DNA of 64,000 nt from Faunimonas pinastri. Lineage in GTDB: Bacteria; Pseudomonadota; Alphaproteobacteria; Rhizobiales; Afifellaceae. A program made the position numbers and the translations under genes. Positions within the stretch are counted from its first letter, which is position 1. The number at the start of each line of letters is the position of its first letter. The DNA lies in NCBI RefSeq assembly GCF_900110915.1, contig NZ_FOFG01000001.1, forward strand, positions 248,001 to 312,000. The letters are read 5' to 3'. Shown here piece by piece: positions 11,989 to 41,437 of the stretch. Under the pieces are notes generated by a model that saw only the letters and a program-made list of their open reading frames with translations, made no database searches and was not told the origin of the DNA.

Positions 11989-13557
11989 ATGTCCAAGCTG
12001 AAGAAAGTCGCCGACCAGGTCATCGTCATCACGGGAGCGACGAGCGGTATCGGTCTGGCGACGGCCCGGACGGCGGCGGAAAAGGGCGCCAAGCTCGTCC
12101 TGGTCGCGCGCAGCGAGGAAACGCTGAAGGAAATCACGCAGGAGATCCGCGCCAAGGGCGGCGAGGCGATCTACGTGGTGGCCGATGTGGGAGACGAGGG
12201 GCAGGTAAAGGCCGCGTCCACCGCCGCGATCGGCGAGTTCGGCCATTACGACACCTGGATCAACAATGCCGGCGTGTCGATCTTCGGCACCATCGAGGAA
12301 ACCTCCACGGAGGATCTCCGCCGCCTGTTCGAAACGAATTTCTGGGGCCTCGTCTATGGCTCGCGCGCGGCGGTGGAGCATTTCCGCCAGCGCGGCGGCG
12401 GCAAGCTGATCAACCTCGGCAGCGTCGCCAGCGATGTCTCCATCCCGCTGCAGGGCATGTATTCCGCTTCCAAGCACGCGGTGGCCGGCTTCACCGACGC
12501 CCTGCGCATGGAAGTGAAGCACGAGCGCCTGCCGATCTCCATCACGCTGATCAAGCCCACCAGCATCGGCACGCCGTTCAAGGACCACGCCAAGAACTAC
12601 ATGGACAAGGAACCGACGCTGCCGCCGGTCGTCTATGACGTGCAGATCGTGGCCGACACCATCGTTTATGCCGCCGAGCACGACGTGCGCGACATGATGG
12701 TGGGCGGCGGCGGCCGCATGATGAAGGCGATGGCCGGCCTGATGCCGAAGTTCAGCGACTGGATGGGCTCGCGCACCATGCCTTCCGCGCAGAAGACCAA
12801 CAAGCCCGCTCCCGGCGTGCAGGATCGCTCGCTCTACAAGGGCGGGGCGGATGGCAGCGAACGCAGCGACTATCCGCAGATCCGCAAGACCAGCGTCTAC
12901 ACGACCATGGAGATGCACCCGACGTTGACCGCGCTGGGTCTCGCCGTGGGCGCGCTGGTCGTCACCGGCCTGGTGCTGCGGAGCCGCTCGTCGTCGCGAC
13001 CGCTGGTTTCGGCAAAGACGATGCGGCAGCTCGGCAGGCAGTTGCCCGACCGTTCCACGCTCGCCTCCTACATCCCTGACAGCTCGACGCTGCGTTCCTA
13101 TGTGCCGAGCGCCCGAGACGTTCGCTCGCATCTGCCCAGCGCCCACGATGTCCGTTCCGCGCTGCCGAGCGCCTCGACGGTGAAGTCGCAGCTGCCGAGC
13201 CGCTCGACGCTCGCGTCCTACATCCCGAGTGCCTCCACGGTCGCCAGCTACATCCCGAGCGTGTCGGACATGCAGTCCACCGCCTCGGATCTCAAACGCC
13301 AGGGCCGCAAGGCGGCCGAGCAGCTGCCGGACAAGTCGTGGTTTGCGAAGCGTTGGGCCGCAGGTTCACGCGACGCGCACAAGCTCGCCAGCCACGTGCC
13401 GGACACGTCGTGGTTCGCGAAGCGCTGGGAAGAGGGTTCCCGCCGCGCCGAGAAGGCTGCCAAGCAGGTGCCGGATCGGTCATGGTTCGAGAAGCGTTGG
13501 GCGGAAGGGTCCCGCAAGGCCCGCAAGGCCACCGAGCGGACCGGCCTCTTCGGCTGA
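11989..13557 (+). CDS. Membrane-anchored short-chain dehydrogenase with two-part repeat tail
   Basis: 522 residues in three parts. Residues 1-260 form an NAD(P)-dependent SDR: cofactor loop TGATSGIG at 15-22, NNAG at 92-95, catalytic Ser145, Tyr158 and Lys162 (YSASK). A single membrane segment spans about 311-330. The tail holds eight decapeptides (353-432, consensus P-S-x-S-T-V-x-S-x-I/L) and then three 24-residue repeats (446-517, each with SWFxKRWxxGSR). The ATG at 11989 has a GAGGAG site. The substrate is unknown. A second SDR near 39.8-40.9 kb has the same dehydrogenase-plus-membrane plan but no repeats. The tail is basic and probably cytoplasmic or DNA/membrane-surface binding, but this is a guess. 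Confidence 0.88.
   Translation: MSKLKKVADQVIVITGATSGIGLATARTAAEKGAKLVLVARSEETLKEITQEIRAKGGEAIYVVADVGDEGQVKAASTAAIGEFGHYDTWINNAGVSIFGTIEETSTEDLRRLFETNFWGLVYGSRAAVEHFRQRGGGKLINLGSVASDVSIPLQGMYSASKHAVAGFTDALRMEVKHERLPISITLIKPTSIGTPFKDHAKNYMDKEPTLPPVVYDVQIVADTIVYAAEHDVRDMMVGGGGRMMKAMAGLMPKFSDWMGSRTMPSAQKTNKPAPGVQDRSLYKGGADGSERSDYPQIRKTSVYTTMEMHPTLTALGLAVGALVVTGLVLRSRSSSRPLVSAKTMRQLGRQLPDRSTLASYIPDSSTLRSYVPSARDVRSHLPSAHDVRSALPSASTVKSQLPSRSTLASYIPSASTVASYIPSVSDMQSTASDLKRQGRKAAEQLPDKSWFAKRWAAGSRDAHKLASHVPDTSWFAKRWEEGSRRAEKAAKQVPDRSWFEKRWAEGSRKARKATERTGLFG
13045..13284 (+). repeat. Eight in-frame 30-bp repeats coding decapeptides in the SDR tail
   Basis: Residues 353-432 split into eight units of exactly ten: PDRSTLASYI, PDSSTLRSYV, PSARDVRSHL, PSAHDVRSAL, PSASTVKSQL, PSRSTLASYI, PSASTVASYI and PSVSDMQSTA. 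Pro at position 1 and Ser at position 8 never change; units 1 and 6 are almost identical, which suggests duplication of blocks. Confidence 0.9.
13324..13539 (+). repeat. Three in-frame 72-bp repeats coding SWFxKRW units
   Basis: Residues 446-517 are three units of exactly 24 residues starting LPDKSWFAKRWAAGSR, VPDTSWFAKRWEEGSR and VPDRSWFEKRWAEGSR, each closing with a lysine/alanine-rich helix. The PD-x-S opening recalls the preceding decapeptides, so both repeat types may share an origin. Confidence 0.9.
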
Positions 13558-39832: not shown

Positions 39833-40903
39833 CTAGAGGCGGCGGGCCCGGCGCAGCTGCTGCCGGATTTCACGCGCCGTCAGCTTCGGCGGCGGGGCGG
39901 GCTTCTTGCGCGACAGCAGCAGCCGGCCGATCAGCCAGCCCAGAAATCCCGCGCCCGCGACCGTGACGCTGCCGAGCGTGGAGCGTGGATGCTCGGACAG
40001 GAACAGAGCCGGCGAAAAAGAGCGGGCCCTGTTGCCGAACCGGCCGCGCGCACCGAAATCGCCGGGCACGGGCGCAAAGAGATTGTCGCCCCTCGGCGTT
40101 TCCGGCTCGCTGGTCATCTGGCCCGAATAGCCCTTCTTCGCCATCATGCGGTCGAGCAGGCCGGGCGCCACCTTCTGTCCAAGGATCGCCTGATAGGAGG
40201 ACGAGCCGATCCAGTATTCGCGACGGCCGGGATGCAGCGCCGCGTAATGGATGCCGCTGGCCGCCACTTCCGGCTGGTAGATCGGCGGCACCGGCTGCTG
40301 GCGGAAGGGCATCTTGTTGCGCGCCCATTCGAATTGCGGCGTGTTCACCGCCGGCAGGTGCACCACCGTCAGCCGGACGCGCGAACCATCGTGGATGAGC
40401 TCGGAGCGCAGGGAATCGGTGTAGCCGACGATGGCGTGCTTGGCCCCGCAGTAGGCCGATTGCAGCGGAATGGAGCGGTAGGCCAGTGCCGAGCCGATCT
40501 GCACGATGGTGCCCCGGTCGCGCACCCGCATCCGCTTCAGCGCCGCCATGGTGCCGTGCACGTTGCCCAGGTAAGTCACCTCGGTGATGCGACGGAATTC
40601 CTCCGGCGACATCTCGTGCAGGGGGCCCAGCAGCGTCGCCATCGCGCCGTTGATCCATATGTCGATGGGGCCGAATTCCTCCTCCACCCGCGTGGCGGCG
40701 GCCTCTACCTGATCGTGGTCGGCGACGTCCAGCGGCAGCGCGAGCGCCTGCCCGCCGATGTGGCGGACCTCTTCGGCCGCCGCTTCGAGCCGCTCCGGGC
40801 CGCGCGCTATCAGCCCGATCGAGGCGCCGTCGCGGGCAAAGCGCGCCGCCACCGCCCGCCCCACGCCGGCCGAAGCTCCCGTAATCACCACAACCTTCGC
40901 CAT
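39833..40903 (-). CDS. Membrane-anchored short-chain dehydrogenase (second copy of the SDR+TM plan)
   Basis: 356 residues. The SDR part has the cofactor loop TGASAGVG at 8-15, an unusual NGA (not NAG) at 85-87, Ser138, Tyr151 and Lys155 (YCGAK). A linker of 50 residues leads to a single membrane segment at about 311-330, then a basic tail KKPAPPPKLTAREIRQQLRRARRL. The plan (SDR, linker, membrane segment at the same residues) matches the 12-kb SDR, but the repeat tail is missing. The start at 40903 has a perfect GGAGGTGGG site. Substrate unknown. Confidence 0.9.
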   Translation of the reverse strand: MAKVVVITGASAGVGRAVAARFARDGASIGLIARGPERLEAAAEEVRHIGGQALALPLDVADHDQVEAAATRVEEEFGPIDIWINGAMATLLGPLHEMSPEEFRRITEVTYLGNVHGTMAALKRMRVRDRGTIVQIGSALAYRSIPLQSAYCGAKHAIVGYTDSLRSELIHDGSRVRLTVVHLPAVNTPQFEWARNKMPFRQQPVPPIYQPEVAASGIHYAALHPGRREYWIGSSSYQAILGQKVAPGLLDRMMAKKGYSGQMTSEPETPRGDNLFAPVPGDFGARGRFGNRARSFSPALFLSEHPRSTLGSVTVAGAGFLGWLIGRLLLSRKKPAPPPKLTAREIRQQLRRARRL

Positions 40904-41005
40904 CGACCCACCTCCTGCCCAAGACCTTGCGAGCTCTGATCGGAACCGCATGGACGCATCGCAGGTTCCCGGATCGATATGGGACCGGACACGAGGAGAG
41001 TGGCC

Positions 41006-41437
41006 TTGAAGTCGAAGCAGCTTGCGACAAGCGGGGACCGCGCCTTCGTGCTGGTCCTCGACAGCGGCGATGAGGTCCTGCAAAGCATCAAGGCCTTCGC
41101 CAGGGACAACAGGATCCTTGCCGGCCGCTTTACGGGGCTCGGCGCATTCTCATCCGTTGTTCTCGGCTTCTACGATTTCGAGACGAAGGACTATCACCGC
41201 ATCCCGATCGACGAGCAGGTCGAGGTGGCGAGCTTCGTCGACAACATCGCGACGACCGACGAGGAGGTCTCCATCCACCCGCATATGGTCGTCGCCAAAA
41301 GGGACGGCAGCGCGTTCGGCGGGCATGTGCTGGAAGGCCGGGTCCACCCAACCCTGGAAGTGCTGATCGAGGACGCGCCCGCCCATCTCCGGCGCGTTCG
41401 CGACAAGGAGACCGGCTTGCCGATGCTCAAGGTGTGA
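41006..41437 (+). CDS. PPC (DUF296) domain protein
   Basis: 143 residues with the PPC/DUF296 fold, named from plant AT-hook proteins and also found in bacteria: RILAGRFTGLGAFSSVVLGFYD, SIHPHMVVAKRDGSAFGGHVLEG. Metal-binding histidines (HPH and GGHV) are conserved in bacterial forms. The function is unknown. TTG at 41006 with GAGGAG eight bases before is the best start; an ATG at 40979 lacks a site. Divergent from the SDR by 102 bases. Confidence 0.85.
   Translation: MKSKQLATSGDRAFVLVLDSGDEVLQSIKAFARDNRILAGRFTGLGAFSSVVLGFYDFETKDYHRIPIDEQVEVASFVDNIATTDEEVSIHPHMVVAKRDGSAFGGHVLEGRVHPTLEVLIEDAPAHLRRVRDKETGLPMLKV

Follow-up and report, generated by a model that had tools for sequence, protein, structure and literature searches.

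Downstream of its catalytic domain, a short-chain dehydrogenase (SDR) gene of Faunimonas pinastri continues through a membrane segment into a long repetitive tail. The gene lies in the window, by which we mean the whole stretch of 64,000 nucleotides that was analysed. The question is what this tail is, and whether it works for the enzyme or is merely tolerated.

The dehydrogenase and its membrane helix

The gene and the segments that lead up to the repeats are the following:

11989-13557 (+): SDR open reading frame of 522 aa, short-chain dehydrogenase of NCBIfam subfamily PRK07109
11989..12888 (+): SDR domain, aa 1-300 (PF00106 and PRK07109 matches; 48-sequence alignment)
12889..12921 (+): conserved linker TSVYTTMEMHP, in the subfamily SxYT..xxHP (alignment consensus, homologue tails)
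12922..12978 (+): membrane helix TLTALGLAVGALVVTGLVL, aa 312-330, hydropathy 2.19 (homologue scan, structure model)
12979..13041 (+): basic post-membrane segment RSRSSSRPLVSAKTMRQLGRQ, with a charge of +4 within its first 15 residues (sequence)

Residues 10-200 of the open reading frame match PF00106 (E 3.9e-51). The full frame scores 375.8 bits against NCBIfam PRK07109 (NF005495; cut-off 264) over model positions 2-326 of 334. On the protein this match covers aa 3-327, and the membrane helix (aa 312-330) lies inside it and reaches just past its end. The cofactor motif TGATSGIG is found at aa 15 and NNAG at 92, and the catalytic residues S145, Y158 and K162 (YxxxK = 158-162) are present and conserved in the 48-sequence alignment. 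With score, motifs, catalytic residues and helix in agreement, we assign the protein to PRK07109 on the basis of its sequence. AlphaFold2 models the SDR domain with pLDDT values mostly above 90 and the helix at 311-334, and by structure the enzyme is best matched by ordinary SDRs plus HSD17B13. The closest SDRs, at 53-57% identity, belong to scattered phyla.

The helix is present in nearly all PRK07109 homologues (97 scanned; mean hydropathy 1.79). The original prediction of an SDR followed by a membrane segment upstream of the repeat was thus borne out by the PF00106 and PRK07109 matches and by the hydropathy scan. The helix ends at alignment residue 334, and 188 more residues follow it. In 90 of the 97 PRK07109 members fewer than 80 residues follow the helix, mostly fewer than 30. 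The membrane helix is thus a trait of the subfamily, and the repeat tail is not. In the SDR of Microvirga makkahensis (L073:4001-5272, +), the linker and membrane helix are apparently duplicated at the C terminus.

No gene neighbours of the SDR are common to the loci beyond close taxa. Two further genomes of this bacterial family, G002 and G006, have glyS directly beside a SleB-like hydrolase gene with no SDR between the two genes, so the whole gene was either gained here or lost there. The window holds a second PRK07109 SDR (39833-41083, -; 471 bits), which is 33% identical to the first, has a short basic extension past its membrane helix and has relatives in four genomes of the same family. 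Among the Cupriavidus loci (L056-L086), the SDR lies near a putative LigD-like DNA ligase gene, named by sequence, in 13 loci. In Massilia/Herbaspirillum (L050, L066, L071, L081), the matches are about 2 kb long, which suggests two adjacent SDR copies.

Two repeat arrays in one register

The tail itself is made up as follows:

13042..13281 (+): eight decapeptides, LPDRSTLASY IPDSSTLRSY VPSARDVRSH LPSAHDVRSA LPSASTVKSQ LPSRSTLASY IPSASTVASY IPSVSDMQST (lag-10 identity)
13252..13323 (+): transitional 24-residue unit IPSVSDMQSTASDLKRQGRKAAEQ, consisting of decapeptide 8 as head and 14 residues that keep the 24-mer register (shuffling fit)
13324..13539 (+): three strongly basic 24-residue units hPDxSWFxKRWxxGSRxAxKA, starting at 13324, 13396 and 13468 (TRF, lag-24 identity, model helices)
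13540..13557 (+): C-terminal TGLFG and stop codon (sequence)

The lag-10 self-identity is 0.55 over 84 residues. In 20,000 shuffles it had a mean of 0.11 and a maximum of 0.27, and when any lag from 2 to 30 was allowed in 3,000 shuffles, identity reached at most 0.31. Eight gap-free units of ten residues had been claimed from position 13045; their number and length hold, but the natural start lies one codon earlier, at 13042, and the array ends at 13281. Proline in column 2 and serine in column 9 are fixed in 8/8 units. Column 1 is hydrophobic (L/I/V), column 3 is Asp or Ser, column 5 is mostly Ser, column 6 is Thr or Asp, and column 7 is V/L/M. The array is nearly neutral in charge (+1.9).

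A second array of three 24-mers and a hybrid unit, both missing from the original prediction, follow. TRF reports the 24-mer array with a period of 72 and 3.2 copies. Lag-24 identity is 0.51 across the last 91 residues, and the 24-mers are pairwise identical at 14-16/24 residues. The 24-mer region carries a charge of +11, and the whole tail a net charge of about +17. Decapeptides and 24-mer heads fit each other in register (P = 0.0015). The transitional unit fits the three 24-mers with P = 5e-5 by shuffling, its residues 11-24 alone with P = 0.005. Since unit 8 is the head of this transitional 24-mer, the tail forms one register of seven short units, one hybrid and three long units.

Reading frame, age and constraint

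GC3 is 0.88 and 0.86 in the two arrays and 0.89 in the SDR. The codon-position GC of both arrays matches that of the SDR, so the arrays are read in frame, and a frameshift or non-coding continuation can be ruled out. Where decapeptides share an amino acid, they use the identical codon in 51% of cases vs 40% expected from codon usage (P = 0.026); for the 24-mers the values are 62% vs 59% (P = 0.40). Pooled dS is about 1.07 for the 10-mers and 0.73 for the 24-mers. With synonymous divergence between units near saturation, the duplications are old, and recent slippage is ruled out as their source. For pN/pS we obtained 0.78 (10-mers) and 0.51 (24-mers). Constraint on the decapeptides is thus weak on average except in the fixed columns, and clearer in the 24-mers.

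Distribution of the tail and other long tails

Barring one chance match, this tail was not found in other genomes of three overlapping samples (297 for the order, 385 for the class and 398 for the phylum), which contained one genome of this genus. The exception, a phylum-wide match in L159 (E 9e-5), overlaps an ispD/ispF-like open reading frame and was judged to be due to chance. No second copy was found in the genome itself. Nor did the tail have relatives in Pfam, NCBIfam, PHROGs, PDB sequences, phages or viral contigs: the best Pfam and NCBIfam matches stayed under the curated cut-offs, those in PHROGs had E above 0.6, and PDB sequences gave none. A match on an Alicyclobacillus plasmid (L146) was judged to be one of composition, to a different Pro/Ser repeat with a period of 12 by eye. 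It lies in a hypothetical protein beside ParA (L146:1102-2280, +), which contains a long ASEVPSNKASNVA-type repeat. A literature search found no decapeptide repeats reported with SDRs.

The other 96 PRK07109 members in the comparison likewise lack the tail, in line with the claim that the repeat is foreign to the SDR family. Its absence from relatives had been named as a sign of recent neutral expansion. Relatives without the tail do exist, but recent expansion does not follow, given the near-saturated synonymous sites.

Seven of the 97 PRK07109 members on the tree have 80 or more residues past the helix, and all seven long tails are basic (pI 9.8-11.2). Helix hydropathy is 2.09 in these members vs 1.77 (P = 0.007), a difference that is suggestive, although the seven rows are not independent. 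A periodicity of 11 residues is significant in L127 and L128 (same order) and in L137, that is, in three tails from two lineages; the tails of L083 and L139 resemble that of L137, with periodicity that is not significant. L127:4703-6238 (-) and L128:5045-6439 (+) carry 11-residue tails of unequal length (GGYAGDAASRV-like), which have parts in common and differ in length by about 50 residues. A fixed unit length with changing tail length, which had been expected of a functional repeat, is thus seen in two species in which this enzyme bears another tail, one of 11-residue units. The Caulobacteraceae-like L083, L137 and L139 have a second hydrophobic helix close to the end, past the basic helical tail, possibly forming a membrane hairpin.

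Mapped on the SDR tree, tail state must have changed four times or more; the window protein stands among short-tailed members (support 83). Long tails therefore arose more than once. With unrelated tails at the same point in two other lineages, tail growth is convergent among the sequences compared.

What the tail may do

The tail is, by its sequence, real, well-formed and outside the usual layout of the family; a function for it can be proposed conditionally. Our preferred reading, which we put forward tentatively and at somewhat less than even chances, is that of a membrane-anchored PRK07109 dehydrogenase whose lineage-specific repeat tail serves as a spacer and, through cationic, surface-binding helices at its end, positions the enzyme. 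The membrane helix would keep the enzyme at the inner membrane. AlphaFold2 models the decapeptides as helices of 5-7 residues split by Pro-Ser loops, with no compact fold; pLDDT in the tail is about 43-77, pTM is 0.22 for the tail alone, and no homologous tails stand behind the prediction. Each decapeptide may accordingly be pictured as a short Ser-capped helix broken by Pro, and the array as a flexible, extended spacer rather than a solenoid. The 24-mers are modelled, with low confidence, as longer helices (449-467, 474-491 and 498-517). They could be the working end, in which cationic helices with a W/F/W cluster would stick to an anionic surface; amphipathicity is significant in just one of them (P = 0.009; about 0.18 in the other two). 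This surface might be phospholipid of the membrane or a polymer, either of the envelope or a nucleic acid. Such a tail would add a second attachment, electrostatic or amphipathic, and determine the place or the strength of the enzyme's attachment.

Two features point to opposite sides of the membrane for the tail: the basic residues past the helix would suit the cytoplasm, whereas one helix following a cytoplasmic enzyme would suit the periplasm. For a periplasmic tail, a chain of charge +17 would have to cross the membrane, against the positive-inside rule.

A possible though rather unlikely alternative is a low-complexity extension, produced by old slippage or duplication and tolerated beyond the anchor, with no selected function except harmlessness. 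Its absence from all other sampled genomes and from the other PRK07109 members compared would fit this, as would the decapeptide pN/pS of 0.78, the lack of a confident fold and the unrelated tails at the same spot in other members, which are expected of a permissive end. However, no unit indel is seen although synonymous sites approach saturation, every one of the eight decapeptides has Pro2 and Ser9, both arrays keep one register, and SWF.KRW..GSR.A is retained in the 24-mers with their pN/pS of 0.51.

By analogy with p180, the tail might instead be a cationic scaffold, facing the cytoplasm or the envelope, for ribosome, RNA, DNA or peptidoglycan. We consider this improbable. A strongly basic tail past a single membrane helix is indeed the p180 layout (PMC3362647), but a sequence relation to p180 was neither found nor expected, and the charge of the window protein sits in the 24-mers and not in its nearly neutral decapeptides. 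Moreover, a p180 peptide of three decapeptides bound no RNA, whereas the lysine-rich region did (PMC3362647).

The original prediction, in which the decapeptides are either a solenoid-type folded domain or a Ser/Thr scaffold that is phosphorylated, would suit the exact period and the fixed Pro and Ser columns, but is very unlikely given short helices without compact packing (pLDDT 49-77), no sequence relative among solved structures and no Pfam repeat family above cut-off; the solenoid in particular finds no support in the low-confidence model, itself a prediction made without homologous tails.

If the tail is functional, as a spacer with a surface-binding end or otherwise, one point of a membrane enzyme has received repeat modules more than once and in different forms, with natural short-tailed controls supplied by the SDR tree. 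If the tail is neutral, it still marks the C terminus of a tail-anchored enzyme as a place that permits repeat growth. The Pro/Ser decapeptide unit is undescribed, and its transition into a cationic 24-residue unit is clear.

Comparison with known systems

HSD17B13, a human protein associated with membranes and lipid droplets, is a membrane-associated SDR. It has the SDR fold and is among the top structural matches, but its identity is about 24% and it has no repeat tail.

In the eukaryotic ER protein p180 (RRBP1), basic domains, tandem decapeptides among them, come after a single membrane helix (PMC3362647), the same order as in the window protein. The likeness is an analogy only: no homology is shown, unit, topology and size are different, and p180 has no dehydrogenase.

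C-tail-anchored proteins such as ElaB and YqjD resemble the short-tailed PRK07109 members in having a C-terminal membrane helix and then basic residues (PMC5525287). They end a few residues past the helix, however, and with its 188-residue tail the window protein falls outside the short-tail definition. If that tail were translocated, the protein would be type II-like, a distinction taken from PMC6794478. In E. coli, an extended domain past the helix shifts the demands of insertion towards a strongly hydrophobic helix (PMC6794478).

PRK07109 (NF005495) is the subfamily of the enzyme itself, and with it the window protein shares the entire SDR domain, the linker and the C-terminal membrane helix. 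The model and most members stop soon past the helix, whereas the window protein adds 188 repeat residues. The members with 11-residue tails also have the SDR, the membrane helix and then a long basic repeat tail. Their period is different (11), their units are Gly/Ala-rich (GGYAGDAASRV) and not Pro-based, they stand at other positions on the SDR tree, and a second hydrophobic helix closes the Caulobacteraceae-like tails. It is conceivable, though rather doubtful, that PRK07109 dehydrogenases repeatedly gain basic repeat tails past the helix as exchangeable modules that choose a site in the envelope; the tail of 10- and 24-residue units would then be a new, structurally undescribed type.
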